Positions 45,030-54,672 of a stretch of DNA of 64,000 nt are shown here, one piece after another (the first letter of the stretch is position 1; every line of letters starts with the position of its first letter). The notes under the pieces are model-generated. The model searched no databases. It saw only the letters and a list, made by a program, of their open reading frames with translations, and was not told the origin of the DNA. The stretch is from an uncultured Flavobacteriales bacterium (GTDB lineage Bacteria; Bacteroidota; Bacteroidia; Flavobacteriales_D; Crocinitomicaceae), in the NCBI GenBank assembly GCA_903945495.1, contig CAJAVU010000107.1, positions 62,001-126,000 of the forward strand, written 5' to 3'. Both the position numbers and the translations under genes were made by a program.

Positions 45030-46274
45030 TCAACCAATTAATTGTGTGAACAAGCTCGGGTTTTGATTCAAGTATTCAAAATGAAATTGCAAACGTTCCA
45101 AGTTTTGCATGATTGCGTCAAGATCTGTTTTGTTTTTTAATTCCAAGCCAACAACTGCAGGACCACTTTCACGGTTATTCTTCTTTGAAAATTGGAAAAA
45201 AGTAATGTCGTCTGTTGGTCCCAACACCTTGCTCACAAAATCTTTCAAAGCTCCTGGTCGCTGCGGAAATTGAATTAAAAAGTAGTGTTTTAGTCCTTCG
45301 TAAAACAATGAGCGTTCCTTAATTTCCTCTGTGCGCGTGATATCATTGTTACTTCCACTCACAATACAAACGACGGTTTTTCCCTGAAGTTCTTCTTTCA
45401 ATTGATCCAACGCAGCGATACTCAAGGCTCCCGCTGGTTCTACCACCATTGCTTCTTCGTTGTACAATTTCAGAATGGTGCTGCACACTTTTCCTTCATC
45501 CACCGTAATGACACGATCCAAGCGATCGCGGCAGAGTTGAAAATTCAAATCTCCCACACGCTTTACCGCTGCTCCGTCTACAAACTTGTCGATTTCCAGC
45601 AAGCCTATATTTTCGCCCGCTTCAATAGCCGTTTTCATCGAGGCTGCTCCTGCAGGTTCAACTCCAATAATTTTGGTATTCGGGCTCAAGTGTTTAAATA
45701 CAGTTGAAACGCCTGCTGCTAATCCACCTCCACCAATTGGAAGCAGTAAATAATCGATTGGATCTTTTACCTGTTTTAATAATTCCAACCCAATTGTTCC
45801 TTGTCCAGCAATCACTTTCACATCATCAAACGGATGGACAAAAACGTTGTTATTCTTTTCACAAAATACGATTGCTTCCTTGTAAGCGTCGTCAAAGGTA
45901 TCGCCTGCTAATACTATTGTCACATTTCCTTTTCCAAACAATTCAACTTGCTTAATTTTCTGTTTGGGCGTTGTGGTCGGCATGAAAATCGTACCGTGGA
46001 TGTTCAATAAATTGCACGAAAAGGCGACTCCTTGTGCATGATTTCCTGCACTTGCACAAACGATTCCTTGCGATTTTTGCGTTTCATTCAAGGAGAGAAT
46101 TTTATTGTATGCTCCACGAATTTTATACGAACGCACCACTTGTAAATCTTCTCGTTTCAAAAAGATAGTTGCACCTATTTGTTCAGATAAATTCATGTTC
46201 CAACTACAAGGCGTTTCAGTGACGACTGATTGAAGTGTCTCATACGCTTTGTCTATTTGATTAACTAAATCCAT
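45030..46274 (-). CDS. ilvA: Threonine dehydratase, biosynthetic
   Basis: Converts threonine to 2-oxobutyrate, the first step to isoleucine. 414 residues. The PLP lysine is in RSYKIRGAYN; the phosphate loop GGGGLAAG and SGSNND are present. The C-terminus carries one ACT-like regulatory domain (YFLIQFPQRPGALKDFVSKV), shorter than the two-domain enzyme of E. coli (514 residues), as in other short IlvA forms. It is the last gene of the ilvEDBNCA operon, 1 bp after ilvC, and is presumably inhibited by isoleucine. Confidence 0.95.
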   Translation of the reverse strand: MDLVNQIDKAYETLQSVVTETPCSWNMNLSEQIGATIFLKREDLQVVRSYKIRGAYNKILSLNETQKSQGIVCASAGNHAQGVAFSCNLLNIHGTIFMPTTTPKQKIKQVELFGKGNVTIVLAGDTFDDAYKEAIVFCEKNNNVFVHPFDDVKVIAGQGTIGLELLKQVKDPIDYLLLPIGGGGLAAGVSTVFKHLSPNTKIIGVEPAGAASMKTAIEAGENIGLLEIDKFVDGAAVKRVGDLNFQLCRDRLDRVITVDEGKVCSTILKLYNEEAMVVEPAGALSIAALDQLKEELQGKTVVCIVSGSNNDITRTEEIKERSLFYEGLKHYFLIQFPQRPGALKDFVSKVLGPTDDITFFQFSKKNNRESGPAVVGLELKNKTDLDAIMQNLERLQFHFEYLNQNPSLFTQLIG

Positions 46275-46275
46275 T

Positions 46276-47745
46276 TCAATTGAGCGTTTTCATGTCGGTC
46301 ATCGCTTGACGCAAATAATCTCCCACGTATTCAATCTCATGCGAACGAATTGATTTGTTTACAGCAATTAATTCCAAATTGTCAACTTCATTTGATACAC
46401 TGAAATCTGTACCTATTATCGTTTCAGAACACTTTGCCATAAAACCTTCTAATAAAGGAAAACAAGAATGATAAAACAAATAGCAACCATATTCTGCTGT
46501 ATCGGAAATAATGCGATTCATTTCATACAACTTTTTACGTGCAATCGTGTTTGCAATAAGCGGAACTTCGTGCAAAGATTCATAATATGCCGATTCAGCT
46601 TTAATTCCTGATTTCGTCATTGTTTCATACGCCAATTCAACACCTGCTTTTACGAAAGCCACGAGCAAGGTTCCATGATCAAAGTACTGTTGATTCGCGA
46701 GTTTTTCACTGCTCGCACTTGTCTTTTCAAAAGCAGTTTCGCCAGTTTGACGTCTCCATTCCAACAATTCAGCATCGCCATTTTTCCAATCAAGCATCAT
46801 GCGTTGTGAAAAAGCTCCACTTAAAATATCATCCATGTGTTTCACAAAAAGCGGACGTAGAATGAACTTCAATTCAACCGCCAATTCGAATGCTTCAATT
46901 TTGGCAGGATTCGATAAGCGATCCATCATGTGTGTAATTCCACCTTGTTTCAATGCTTCCGTAATTTCTTCCCAACCATATTGAATCAAATGAGCTGCAT
47001 ATGCTGGTTCCACCCTATTTTTAAGCATTTGATCAAAACACAAGACAGAAGCCGTTTGCAATAAACCGCACAACATCGTTTGTTCACCCATTAAATCAGA
47101 TTTTACTTCGGCGACAAACGAAGATAACAACACGCCGGCTTTATGTCCACCAGTTGCTACGGCATACGCTTTCGCTTGGTTATAGCCAATCCCTTGTGGA
47201 TCATTTTCTGAATGAATTGCAATCAATGTTGGCACACCAAAACCACGTTTGTATTCTTCACGCACTTCTGTTCCTGGACATTTTGGAGCAACCATGATTA
47301 CGGTGATATCTTCACGAATTTGTATACCTTCTTCCACAATGTTAAAACCGTGTGAATATGACAAGGTCGCTCCTTTTTTCATCAATGGTATTAATGTATT
47401 TACTACAGATGTGTGTTGTTTATCGGGAGTCAAATTCAACACAACATCTGCTGTTGGAATCAACTTTTCGTAGGTATCAACCTGAAATCCATTCTTTGCG
47501 GCGTTTTGCCAAGACGTATTTTGTTGTTCAATCGCTTCTTTTCTCAAGGCATACGAAATATCTAAACCAGAATCGCGCATGTTTAAACCTTGATTTAATC
47601 CTTGAGCGCCACATCCTACAATGACGATTTTTTTGTTCAATAACGCCGTAACTCCGTTTTCAAATTCAGATTTTGGTAGGAATTCACATTTCCCAAGTTG
47701 TTCGGTTTGTTTTCTAAATGGAAGTTGATTAAAGTAATTTTTCAT
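46276..47745 (-). CDS. ilvC: Ketol-acid reductoisomerase, class II (long form)
   Basis: Second common step to valine and isoleucine: isomerises and reduces acetolactate and acetohydroxybutyrate with NADPH. 489 residues, the length of the plant/E. coli class II enzyme rather than the 330-residue class I form. The NADPH fold starts [19 protein letters not shown]; further blocks include [20 protein letters not shown] and the duplicated knotted helical domain. It lies 1 bp upstream of ilvA and 10 bp downstream of ilvN. Confidence 0.96.
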
Positions 47746-47755
47746 GTCAATTTTA

Positions 47756-48274
47756 TTAATGTTCTAATTCGTGTAAATATGTTTTAAGTGTTTTCATTGG
47801 CTTGGATATCGCCACGCGTCCGGAGCGCACAAATTCAAGCACATCGAACTGATCTAAATCTTCAAACAGTTGATCTAATTCTTTTGACTGACCCGTTTTT
47901 TCAATGATGATAAAGGCTTCTTCTACCGCTAGAATTCGTGCATTGTGTTCGCGAATCACACTTTCCGTTTCTCCTTTCAAAAAAGCTTGCGTCGGGATTT
48001 TATACAAGGCAATTTCTTGATGAACAACGTCTTCATCCGCATGATAAAATGCTTTTAGCACTTCCACTTGTCGCTCAATTTGTCCAACCACTTTTTTCAC
48101 TTGTTCCACATCCGTTTTCACCACAATCGTGTAACGGTAAACACCTTTCACTTCCGATTCTGAAGCCGTAATACTCTCAATATTCAAATGGCGACGCGTA
48201 AAAATGATGGTGATACGGTTCAATATTCCAATTCTATTTTCCGTAAAGACGGATATATTAAAGATCTTTTCCAT
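47756..48274 (-). CDS. ilvN: Acetolactate synthase small subunit
   Basis: Regulatory subunit of acetohydroxyacid synthase, 172 residues. The N-terminal ACT domain opens [20 protein letters not shown], then the second (ACT-like) domain ([33 protein letters not shown]). It makes the large subunit active and sensitive to valine or isoleucine. It starts 4 bp after ilvB. Confidence 0.95.
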
Positions 48275-48278
48275 GTTC

Positions 48279-49967
48279 TTAGTTTAATCTGATTTCTGAT
48301 ACTGAAGCGCCTGTTTCGATCATTGGGAATACGTTTTCCTCTTGCTGAACGACTACCTCCAAGAAAAATGCACCTTTCGATTGCAGCATTTCTTCTAATC
48401 CTTTTTCAAGTTCATTGCGTTCAGTAATCTTGCTTGTTTGAATTGAATAAGCTTTGGCAATTGCACAAAAATCTGGGTTCACAATTTCCGTAAATGAATA
48501 GCGACGATCAAAGAACAATTGTTGCCATTGGCGCACCATTCCTAAAAAGTTATTGTTGAGCACCATTATTTTCACATCGACTTTTGCTTGTAAAATCGTT
48601 CCCAATTCTTGCAAGGTCATTTGGAAACCGCCATCACCAATAATGGCAACAACCGTTTGACTTGGATTACCCAATTTTGCACCAATCGCTGCTGGCAAAC
48701 CAAAGCCCATTGTTCCCAAACCACCAGAAGTGACATTGTTGCGTTGACCTTTGTATTTGTAATAACGTGCCGTAACCATTTGATGCTGTCCAACATCCGT
48801 CACCACAATCGCTTTTCCATCGGTTTGTTCGGATAATAAATGGATTACTTCGGCCATTTTTAATTCATCACTTGTTGGATGTATTGCCGCATCAACAATT
48901 TCATTCGCTTCAATTGCTTCCAAGTCTTTGAATTGTTGCAACCATTGCCCATGATTTTTTGCCTCTACCACTTTCGTCAATAAATCCAACGCTTCTCGTG
49001 CATCCGCATGAAGCGCAACCGTTGCAGGAATGATTTTATTCAATTCTGCTTTGTCGATATCGATGTGAATCACTTTCGCTTGCTTGGCATAACGCGAAAC
49101 ATCACCCGTTACCCGATCATCGAAACGCATACCAACGGCAATTAAGACATCGCATTCATTGGTCAACACGTTAGGCGCATAATTTCCATGCATTCCCAAA
49201 TAACCAAAGTATTGTTCATGATTTGTAGGAAAAGCTCCCAAGCCCAACAAAGTTGAAGCAACGGGAATTCCACTTTTTTCTGCGAAATCGATTAACGCTT
49301 GCTCAGCATTCGACAAATAAATTCCTTGTCCAACAACTAAAAACGGACGCTTCGCCGAATTGATCAATTCAACTGCTTCGTTCAAAACTGTCTTATCAAT
49401 TGTTGGCTTAGTGCTATAACTTCTGATCGACGTGCACGGTTCATAGACAAAATCTACCATTCCAAATTGCGCGTCTTTTGTAATATCTACCAACACCGGG
49501 CCTGGTCGACCAGTTCGTGCGATGTAAAATGCTTTTGCCAATGCTGGTGAAATATCTTCCGCTTTCGTGACCTGAATGTTCCACTTGGTAACTGGCATTG
49601 AAATTCCAATTACATCGGTTTCTTGAAAAGCGTCCGTTCCTAACAAATGTGATGCAACTTGTCCCGTAACACAAACCACTGGAGTAGAATCGATCATGGC
49701 ATCGGCCAAACCTGTAATGAGGTTCGTTGCTCCCGGACCAGATGTTGCGAAACAAACTCCCACTTTTCCAGACGTGCGCGCGTAACCTTGCGCTGCGTGA
49801 ATTGCACCTTGTTCGTGTCGCACCAACACATGCTGTATTGTATCTTTAAAATCGTATAACGCATCATAAATCGGCATAATTGCGCCTCCTGGATAACCAA
49901 ATAAGGTTGTTACTCCTTCTTGTTCTAAGCAGCGCATCACTGCTTCTGCACCTCTACTTTTCATCAT
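48279..49967 (-). CDS. ilvB: Acetolactate synthase large subunit
   Basis: ThDP- and FAD-dependent enzyme that makes acetolactate and acetohydroxybutyrate. 562 residues. The catalytic glutamate is in [16 protein letters not shown], and the ThDP-binding block [15 protein letters not shown]...[12 protein letters not shown] is intact, so this is a biosynthetic acetohydroxyacid synthase rather than a pyruvate oxidase. It starts 3 bp after ilvD. Confidence 0.97.
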
Positions 49968-49970
49968 TTC

Positions 49971-51644
<1,674 letters not shown>

Positions 51645-51647
51645 GAG

Positions 51648-52538
51648 TTATAAATAAACGTGTTTGTATTCGTTGGTAGCAACTCTACGTTTGTACATGC
51701 GCTGCACCAAATAACTGTTTGTATCTTCCCAGTTCATTGGAAAACGGTAGTCATTGAATTGTTCAATTCCAATTACTTCAGCTGCTGTTCCGCAGAAAAA
51801 TGCTGCATCTGCGTTTAACAATTCTTCAGGCTTAAAGAAACGTTCTTCAATTTCAACTCCTAACTCTTGTGCAAGTTCGAAGACTGTGGCGCGCGTAATT
51901 CCAGAAAGGATATTTCCTAAAGGGGCCGTTACCAATTTTCCGTCTTTTTCAAAAAAGAAATTCGCTCCAGGTCCTTCTGCTACGTTTCCATTAATGTCTG
52001 TCAATAAAGCTTCGTCGAATCCTTTTTGTTTCGCTTCTGTTGTTGCTAAGATGCTGTTTGTGTAATGTCCAACAACTTTTGCTTGCACGTGACATGCTTT
52101 TGGGTTTGGACGTTGGTAAGAAGAGAGCATAACTTTCAACATTTTATCACCAAGGTATTTTCCCCATTCCCACACCATGATAACAACATTCACTTCATCT
52201 GTAGGTGTTAGCGACATGTTTTCTCCAAGATAAACCAAGGGACGAATGTAGGCATCACTCAAGTCGTTCAATTCCAATAAGCGATACGTGATTTGTTCTA
52301 ATTCCTCAGAAGAATAGCGCAATGAAATATGCATTTTATCTGCTGAATAATGCAAGCGATCATAATGCTCTTTCGCTTTAAAAATTCGCGTTCCATCTGG
52401 TGTTTCATACGATCGAATTCCTTCGAACACTCCATTCCCATAGTGCATTGTTTGATTGTACAAACCTACTTTGGCATCTTTTGCTTTTACATACTCACCG
52501 TTCAAAAAAACGATTGTTTCATCTGTGTAATACATCAT
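51648..52538 (-). CDS. ilvE: Branched-chain amino acid aminotransferase
   Basis: PLP-dependent (fold IV) transaminase for the last step to valine, isoleucine and leucine. 296 residues. The PLP lysine is in AKVVGHYTNS; DEALLTDINGNVAEGPGANF and LSGITRATVFELAQELG are the family blocks. It is the first gene of the operon: a terminator/antiterminator leader lies directly upstream (its U tract ends 20 nt before the ATG), so the gene is only transcribed when the attenuator opens. The frame can start at either of two adjacent ATGs. Confidence 0.95.
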   Translation of the reverse strand: MMYYTDETIVFLNGEYVKAKDAKVGLYNQTMHYGNGVFEGIRSYETPDGTRIFKAKEHYDRLHYSADKMHISLRYSSEELEQITYRLLELNDLSDAYIRPLVYLGENMSLTPTDEVNVVIMVWEWGKYLGDKMLKVMLSSYQRPNPKACHVQAKVVGHYTNSILATTEAKQKGFDEALLTDINGNVAEGPGANFFFEKDGKLVTAPLGNILSGITRATVFELAQELGVEIEERFFKPEELLNADAAFFCGTAAEVIGIEQFNDYRFPMNWEDTNSYLVQRMYKRRVATNEYKHVYL

Positions 52539-52558: not shown

Positions 52559-52590
52559 AAAAAAGCCCTCCCCAAATGAATGAGAAAGGC
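52559..52590 (-). terminator. Attenuator terminator upstream of ilvE
   Basis: On the minus strand GCCTTTCTC (52590-52582) pairs over 9 bp (including G-U pairs) with GGGGAGGGC (52573-52565), followed by six U. It is mutually exclusive with the antiterminator described for the leader. Confidence 0.85.
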
Positions 52591-52615
52591 TGACTTTTTT
52601 GAATACAAGCAATTC

Positions 52616-52666
52616 TCACTCCATCGGAATGATAATAATGATTGGGATAATGATTGCTTGTTTCAT
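52616..52666 (-). CDS. ilv operon leader peptide, Ile-rich
   Basis: A 16-codon ORF, ATG at 52666 and TGA at 52616, encoding MKQAIIIPIIIIIPME. Eight of sixteen codons are isoleucine (ATC and ATT), the amino acid made by the downstream operon (ilvA, ilvB, ilvC, ilvD, ilvE). It sits 78 bp upstream of the ilvE ATG and immediately before the alternative hairpins. Its Ile-only composition, with no leucine or valine codon, predicts control by isoleucyl-tRNA charging. Confidence 0.85.
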   Translation of the reverse strand: MKQAIIIPIIIIIPME

Positions 52667-52692
52667 ACCTAATTGTAACTTGAAAAACACTA

Positions 52693-54672
52693 TTATCTGT
52701 TAACTACGATGAATTTGCTAGTATACGATACCGAAGCATTCGTCAACTTTACAAAATACACACCTGTTGCAAGATTCTCTTTTAAAAACACATCTACTTT
52801 ATTGTCATTTGCTTCGAAAGCAATTGTGTTTGATGCGATTGTTTGTCCTGTTGAATTAACAATTTGAACATCCAGCTCTTCTGATTTTGAAAAAGAATAA
52901 TAGATATTCAATACATTGTTTAAATTGTTAAATGACGCTTTAATGTCAATTTCTTTGTTGCATGAATTATCAACTGAAATCGTTTTCAATTGGCGTTTTG
53001 TTCCATCTAAATCAGTTTGAGATAAGCGATAATAACTCATACCTCTTGTCAATGAATAATCTTGGAAAGAATAGTCAACATATTCTGTAGAGTTAATCAT
53101 TCCTTGGACAATGCTCAATTCAGAAAACTGGCCGTCTTCGTTTGCTTTTTCAATTGTAAAGAATGCATTATTATGTTCGGAAGCTGTTTCCCAAATTAGA
53201 TTATTAAAGTTTTCATTACAGAAACCTTTGAAATCAATTAATTCGATTGGTAACACTTCGATTGAGCCACATGTTCCAGTAAAACTTGGAGGAGACAATG
53301 TTGGTGTGTAAAACGTATTTGAACTTAGTGTTTTTGTCACTGGACTTCCAGAACTTGAAGGAACGGATCCAAAATAGGTAACTGAAACACTCGTCGCTGA
53401 AGATGAAGCATCACTAACAATGTTTGTACTTCCACTCGTTAAAAATTGACAATCTCGCACAGTCACGTTACACGCATTACTGAATCCATTTGCTGCATAG
53501 ATATCAAATCCAAGATCACCAACATTACCTATGAATACTGTTGAATCCACTGTCAGGTTGATTGTTTTCAAGGTTGAGAAAGCACCAGAAGTACCTAAGT
53601 ATCGGCATGCAATTGCTCCACCTCTCAAGGTTCCAGCAGATTTTGCATTATTTTCAAAACGGCATTTTGTAAATCGTGCGGTTCCTGCATTCATAAAGAA
53701 GGCACCACCATAAACGGTTGTTGAAGTTTGACCAGCGGTATTGCCTTGAATAATACAATTAGAAACATTCAACACTCCATTCGTTTGAGAAATCGCCCCA
53801 CCATGTGAAGCCATATTATTTGAAATTCTGCAATTTCGCACGGTTACGTTTGTAGTAGGATCTCCCTCAATTCTCAATCCACCACCGTCAAATGAGCCAA
53901 CCTTATAATTGTTTGAAAGTATAGAATTTTCGATTACTAATGTGATTGCTGTTCCGTATGCTTCTATTCCACCGGTGTAGGCTGTACCATTTGTGTTACA
54001 AAAACTTCCACCGCCTTTTACGGTTACTGATGAATTGGATAAAACAGAAAGTGCAGGATTACCGCCAGACAAACCATTTTCTATAAAGTTTATATTTTCT
54101 AAGAGAATTCCAGATCTTACAACTCCTGCACCACCAATTGTAATTGCTTGTCCACTGTGTCCTGGTGATTGAGTGCCATTGTTATCGAATTCGCGAATGG
54201 TCATATTCTTTAAAACAACATTGCTTGCATTGATGTACATGAAGTACTCTGTTGGTGTTCCATGATGGTTATGATCAAAAATCGTCGTGTTCATGTTTGA
54301 CCCCATAAACGTTAATCCTGCAACTGTAATGTCAAAACCAGCTTCATCAACACTTGCTCCACCAGTTGCACTGTAGGTTCCTGCATCAATAAAAATTACG
54401 TCACCACTTGTTAGAACATTCGTACCTGAAGGTCCATAGGTCATCCATAAATTCTTTAAAGTCAATTTTGGTGTACCCGCTGTTAAACCATTATTTGAGT
54501 TATTACCAATTGCTAAACAATAAGTGTCACCAGTTGCACTTGCATCATTTACGTAATAGTTAGTAGCAGTAACGTAGTTTGATAATGTACAAGACAAAAA
54601 CAATAATGCAACAGTTGACATATAAACCCTTGTGTGTAATCGGGAGATAGTATCGAAAAGTGGTTTCAACAT
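52693..54672 (-). CDS. T9SS-secreted parallel beta-helix protein
   Basis: A 659-residue surface protein: a putative signal region near residues 15-35 (MSTVALLFLSC...YVTA), a long right-handed parallel beta-helix (about 45-420) rich in VVLKNMTIREF, NVTVRNCRISNNMASHGGAI and similar turns as in polymorphic outer-membrane and pectate-lyase-like proteins, then a linker and a type A T9SS sorting domain (about 580-659, ending SYTSKFIVVNR). It likely binds or cleaves polysaccharide. A 21-bp-period direct repeat lies upstream. Confidence 0.85.
   Translation of the reverse strand: MLKPLFDTISRLHTRVYMSTVALLFLSCTLSNYVTATNYYVNDASATGDTYCLAIGNNSNNGLTAGTPKLTLKNLWMTYGPSGTNVLTSGDVIFIDAGTYSATGGASVDEAGFDITVAGLTFMGSNMNTTIFDHNHHGTPTEYFMYINASNVVLKNMTIREFDNNGTQSPGHSGQAITIGGAGVVRSGILLENINFIENGLSGGNPALSVLSNSSVTVKGGGSFCNTNGTAYTGGIEAYGTAITLVIENSILSNNYKVGSFDGGGLRIEGDPTTNVTVRNCRISNNMASHGGAISQTNGVLNVSNCIIQGNTAGQTSTTVYGGAFFMNAGTARFTKCRFENNAKSAGTLRGGAIACRYLGTSGAFSTLKTINLTVDSTVFIGNVGDLGFDIYAANGFSNACNVTVRDCQFLTSGSTNIVSDASSSATSVSVTYFGSVPSSSGSPVTKTLSSNTFYTPTLSPPSFTGTCGSIEVLPIELIDFKGFCNENFNNLIWETASEHNNAFFTIEKANEDGQFSELSIVQGMINSTEYVDYSFQDYSLTRGMSYYRLSQTDLDGTKRQLKTISVDNSCNKEIDIKASFNNLNNVLNIYYSFSKSEELDVQIVNSTGQTIASNTIAFEANDNKVDVFLKENLATGVYFVKLTNASVSYTSKFIVVNR

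Follow-up and report, generated by a model that had tools for sequence, protein, structure and literature searches.

A putative isoleucine-rich leader-peptide attenuator before the ilvEDBNCA operon of a Crocinitomicaceae bacterium, with counterparts in related Bacteroidota

Does the short region in front of ilvE contain a device through which the supply of charged isoleucine tRNA could set the transcription of a whole biosynthetic operon? Leader-peptide attenuation is textbook knowledge in Enterobacteria, where the ilvGMEDA, ilvBN, leu, and his operons are the familiar cases. In the window, that is, the whole stretch of 64,000 nt analyzed here, six genes follow the region in the order ilvE-ilvD-ilvB-ilvN-ilvC-ilvA, and each of them scores above its NCBIfam cut-off (Table 1). 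The upstream gene (52693-54672), encoding a T9SS sorting-tail protein, stops 26 nt (52667-52692) before the start codon of a short Ile-rich ORF. The features described below indicate that the region is very probably a ribosome-mediated transcription attenuator of ilvEDBNCA, which would sense Ile-tRNA by ribosome stalling of the E. coli type.

The short ORF consists of 16 codons and a stop codon at 52618-52616 (ATG AAA CAA GCA ATC ATT ATC CCA ATC ATT ATT ATC ATT CCG ATG GAG TGA). Eight of the codons are Ile codons (ATC or ATT), and neither Val nor Leu codons are present. A first-pass annotation of this DNA had described a 16-codon leader with eight Ile codons at 52666-52616 and without Leu or Val codons; re-reading of the sequence reproduced every coordinate of this observation, and the codon listing agrees with the absence. 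As a short ORF in which 8/16 codons specify an end product of the operon, and which is kept in relatives, it has the character of an attenuator leader, and its translation is predicted from the sequence. Initiation led by a Shine-Dalgarno sequence is mostly absent from Bacteroidota. The Ile density of the ORF should be noted. Among the 3048 short ORFs in the window, at least six Ile codons within nine codons are found exclusively in this ORF (with two start codons), while a first-order Markov sequence gives 0.27 such ORFs per window and none as rich in Ile as this leader. The 129-nt region also folds more stably than expected (z = −4.2), and the terminator scan finds one site there against 0.1 in shuffled sequences.

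Three hairpins can be drawn in the RNA. The protector (segments 1 and 2) is a perfect stem of 9 bp, all of which are Watson-Crick pairs, and the antiterminator (segments 2 and 3) also has 9 bp, one of which is a G-U pair. In the terminator (segments 3 and 4), nucleotides 52591-52581 are paired with 52574-52564, and the end of the U-tract is separated from the ATG of ilvE (52538) by 20 nt. An intrinsic terminator thus lies before the first structural gene according to both the sequence and the scan, and termination is predicted to occur there. These stems had been proposed in the first-pass annotation as a 9-bp stem over leader codons 2-5, a 9-bp antiterminator with the leader stop codon in its 5' arm, and a terminator with six U ending 20 nt before ilvE, and all of them were recovered with exactly these pairings. 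The further claim that the pairings are mutually exclusive holds for the terminator and the antiterminator, which have 6 nt in common and are genuinely incompatible, but not in the same sense for the core protector and the antiterminator, which share base 52613 only. The exclusion between the latter two is mainly topological, since the 5' arm of the antiterminator is enclosed in the protector hairpin, with a contribution of the inner helix. In several genus-mates, an extended protector also pairs the bases of the stop codon. A protector that would block the antiterminator when no ribosome is stalled is therefore present, with one base in common with the antiterminator, and in distant relatives it is weaker or, by the present definition, not apparent.

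Table 1. Features of the putative attenuator and of the operon that follows it
Feature	Position	Strand	Basis and remarks
Leader ORF, product MKQAIIIPIIIIIPME	52616..52666	-	ATG..TGA; Ile-rich ORF in 18/18 related ilvE loci
Segment 1, protector 5' arm (codons 2-5), ACAAGCAAT	52653..52661	-	Pairing; compensatory change in genus
Protector 1:2, 3' arm, ATTGCTTGT	52605..52613	-	Pairing; compensatory change in genus
Segment 2, antiterminator 5' arm, GAGTGAGAA	52613..52621	-	Includes leader TGA; pairing; arm-swap test
Segment 3, antiterminator 3' arm, TTCTCATTC	52578..52586	-	Pairing; 6-nt overlap with terminator 5' arm; arm-swap test
Predicted intrinsic terminator hairpin 3:4	52564..52591	-	11 bp, 6-nt loop; folding and terminator scan
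Terminator U-tract	52559..52564	-	Six T; first T can join the stem
ilvE, branched-chain aminotransferase	51648..52538	-	NF005146 and TIGR01122 above cut-off
ilvD, dihydroxy-acid dehydratase	49971..51644	-	TIGR00110 above cut-off
ilvB, acetolactate synthase large subunit	48279..49967	-	TIGR00118 above cut-off
ilvN, acetolactate synthase small subunit	47756..48274	-	TIGR00119 above cut-off
ilvC, ketol-acid reductoisomerase	46276..47745	-	NF003557 above cut-off
ilvA, threonine ammonia-lyase	45030..46274	-	TIGR02079 above cut-off

The proposed mechanism is as follows. RNA polymerase would transcribe the leader while a ribosome behind it translates the Ile-rich peptide. When Ile-tRNA is ample, the ribosome would reach the stop codon and cover segment 2, the terminator would form, and transcription would end before ilvE. 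A shortage of charged Ile-tRNA would stall the ribosome on the Ile codons, where it would mask segment 1, so that segment 2 could pair with segment 3 while segment 4 is still to be transcribed, leading to read-through into the operon. If the leader is not translated at all, the protector would form and the terminator would form as well.

The growing RNA was folded stepwise with the ribosome footprint kept unpaired, the footprint being assumed to extend 15 nt behind and 13 nt ahead of the first base of the A site. With the A site on Ile codon 5, 7, or 9, the 9-pair antiterminator becomes the minimum-energy fold from approximately nucleotides 83-89, before segment 4 exists. It remains the best fold up to approximately nucleotide 101 when Ile codons 5-9 are masked, and up to nucleotide 125 for a stall at codon 9. 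In the modeled state with the ribosome at the stop codon, no structure is found until the terminator forms, and in the model without a ribosome, the protector forms and then the terminator. In the modeled states, stalling on the control codons thus releases the antiterminator, which excludes the terminator, and the arms of the antiterminator change together across loci, as described below. The equilibrium of the complete RNA should also be noted. With codons 5-7 masked, the terminator is favored by approximately 3 kcal/mol, so that antitermination must depend on which structure folds first, that is, on kinetics. The outcome is likewise kinetic in known attenuators.

We compared the region with those of relatives in two overlapping sets. 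The first set comprises 18 loci, including that of the window, whose ilvE products are at least 63% identical within the genus, family, and order. In all 18, ilvE is preceded by a short ORF rich in Ile and by a terminator. Examples of the leaders are MKQVIFISIIIDIPKE, MKQAVIILVIQNIPEE, MYNNTVIIINTIIVWTT, and MNVIIIIHS; the leader of L018 lacks an ATG, and its start would be GTG. The second set consists of 80 loci from a scan of named genomes, which belong to Flavobacteriales, Cytophagales-type genera (Pontibacter, Cyclobacteriaceae, Fulvivirga, and Xanthovirga), and Aureispira. A terminator-like hairpin is present in 79 of the 84 loci having enough upstream DNA. An ORF rich in Ile, Val, and Leu ends 15-45 nt before this terminator in 76/79 loci, against 8.7 (sd 3.0) expected from Markov-shuffled sequences, and by the stricter measure of five Ile in nine codons in 48/79 loci against 0.4 in shuffles. 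The distance from the stop codon to the terminator varies little, with a median of 25 nt and an interquartile range of 23-27.

The pairing of the arms was evaluated by swapping them among 74 units chosen by eye from these loci, 71 of which are distinct, in 20000 permutations uncorrected for relatedness. In the 71 units, pairing is better between native arms than between swapped arms, with z = −12 for the antiterminator, z = −5 for the protector, and z = −22 for the terminator, and none of the 20000 permutations is as good as the native pairing. Swaps between kin, whose arms are similar, work against this effect. Within the genus, the protector arms change together (CAAGCA/TGCTTG, CAGGCA/TGCCTG, and CAGACA/TGTCTG). 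The comparison with related genomes that the first-pass annotation had called for thus finds that the leader ORF is kept and that the arms of the hairpins are kept with compensatory changes. Approximately half of the genus-mates (G001-G025), some of whose genomes are incomplete, do not have this ilvE, their best match being a distant paralogue, and the distribution of operon and leader within the genus is thus patchy.

These observations bear on other explanations of the region. The hairpin could be a mere terminator of the upstream gene, next to an accidental short ORF, as it is a good intrinsic terminator and that gene stops close to the leader. However, the leader, antiterminator, and terminator are kept together in relatives at near-constant spacing and change together, also at loci where a promoter-like box immediately precedes the leader, which makes this explanation very unlikely. 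A functional small hydrophobic protein, with the hairpins as separate elements, is still more doubtful. Outside the run of Ile, Val, and Leu, the leader peptide diverges freely in both sequence and length (9 to more than 30 codons) while the distance between its stop and the terminator is nearly fixed, though the start, the stop, and the hydrophobic run are indeed kept. The probability that the RNA senses tRNA or a metabolite directly, as a T-box or a riboswitch, appears negligible. Such elements control amino-acid operons in other phyla, but no Rfam family reaches its gathering score in the whole window, and a search of the region at a lax threshold gave nothing credible. In particular, neither search found a T-box architecture, and the covariance models of the amino-acid operon leader families matched neither the window at the gathering score nor the region at the lax one. 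The RNA is also short for a T-box, and direct sensing would leave the conserved Ile-rich ORF unexplained.

Ribosome-mediated attenuation is thus the preferred reading, and its signal has to be considered next. The first-pass annotation expected control to follow isoleucyl-tRNA only. Judging from the codons, this expectation is reasonable for the genome of the window, since the leaders of its whole genus group use mostly Ile codons and the genome itself has no match to LeuA or a true LeuC. This genome (G000) is 99.99% complete according to the tool, and its LeuC matches are frames of 757 and 934 amino acids, the size of aconitases. This organism, having a full ilv operon without LeuA or a true LeuC, is probably auxotrophic for leucine and a producer of its own Ile and Val. 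The leaders of relatives use Val and Leu codons as well, Leu only sometimes, and they do so more in genomes with leuA, a trend that is confounded with lineage; this would suit an attenuator sensing a mixture of branched-chain amino acids rather than Ile alone. For the leader of the window, with its eight Ile codons and neither Val nor Leu, in a genome where no LeuA is matched and the LeuC matches are aconitase-sized, such mixed sensing is unlikely. The Leu fraction of the leader is associated with the presence of leuA across all loci (P = 4e-4), but the same test without the Cytophagales-like loci is not significant (P = 0.39), suggesting that the association may merely reflect kinship.

No promoter is recognizable in the 26 nt between the upstream gene and the leader, and a sigma-70 scan found none. 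TAnnTTTG corresponds to the consensus of the −7 box in Bacteroidota (PMC9723704). No such box lies directly before the leader of the window, and its genus has no perfect box at that place. In relatives, boxes of this type cluster 15-40 nt upstream of the leader start; the three 10-nt bins between −40 and −11 hold 21 of them, and every other bin holds 0-3. In genus relatives, words resembling GGTTTAGGTTAGG are repeated in the stretch matching 52667-52692. A common word close to AATCAGACTTTTTATTTTTT is also found upstream of the leader in L015, L016, and L018 (three genomes, one other family), and is possibly a promoter or a regulator site.

The number of units per locus varies. The locus of the window has a single unit, and approximately 16-18 of the 80 named loci have a second leader and terminator upstream of the first, including L087, L093, L095, L097, L110, L098, L102, L106, L073, L074, L069, and L072. 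Each tandem unit before ilvE has its own ORF rich in Ile and Val and a matching antiterminator arm, and the matching of this arm in the upstream units gives z = −5.3. A few tandem cases (L057 and L080) look like chance. A promoter-like box is found just before the first unit in L069, L072, and L102, and L072-L074 have boxes only far before the second unit; these positions fit one shared transcript. The tandem arrangement among relatives is possibly a new variant. Whether the units represent a non-Rfam family of RNA regulators on ilv operons across several Bacteroidota orders, part of which would carry two serial attenuators requiring both stalls for read-through and thereby giving a steeper or two-step response to Ile and Val, we judge to be an evenly balanced question.

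Compared with the established attenuators of ilvGMEDA, ilvBN, leu, and his in Enterobacteria, the present element has the same parts, namely a short ORF rich in product codons, a protector, an antiterminator, and a terminator, and precedes an operon of the same function. It differs in using Ile codons only, in its sequences, in its single protector stem, in its occurrence in Bacteroidota, and in having no match to an Rfam leader. The kind of mechanism is therefore already known, while this ilv attenuator is without an Rfam family. Vitreschak et al. (2004) reportedly predicted ilv, leu, and his leaders by comparison, in an abstract that is said to name Bacteroidetes/Chlorobi as well. Naville and Gautheret (2010) wrote that, before their case in Firmicutes, no leader-peptide system beyond Proteobacteria and Actinobacteria was known to them (PMC2965389). 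The first-pass annotation had left it open whether such a leader is described in Bacteroidota. For amino-acid operons, a precedent is found in a 2021 study of Flavobacterium psychrophilum, which speaks of "strong clues" for leader-peptide attenuation upstream of them and places pheA and hisG among the elements conserved in the family; for ilv, the main text of that study names no leader (PMC9723704). Its elements resemble the present one in lying before amino-acid biosynthesis operons of Flavobacteriales without an Rfam match (PMC9723704). For B. thetaiotaomicron, long 5' UTRs that may contain leader ORFs have been noted (PMC7366714). Two serial short ORFs in one leader, as in several of the relatives, are found in mgtCBR of Salmonella, which responds to other signals, whereas the window has a single unit (PMC3641672).

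The comparative evidence, which is strong, extends leader-peptide attenuation to ilv operons in Flavobacteriales, in Cytophagales-type genera, and in Aureispira. The units are ready to seed an RNA family and the annotation of missed leader ORFs, and the varying proportions of Ile, Val, and Leu codons together with the tandem units offer a way into the evolution of sensing specificity.

Elsewhere in the same genome, the locus L111 (G000:C92) has a leader with a His run, MLQHHHHSIAQAS, before hisG. Its short ORF, MIFSMLQHHHHSIAQAS, contains four consecutive His codons and is followed by a terminator-like hairpin, AACCCGTCTGAGTAAAATCAAACGGGTTTTTTG, which makes this locus a candidate for a second attenuator in the genome.
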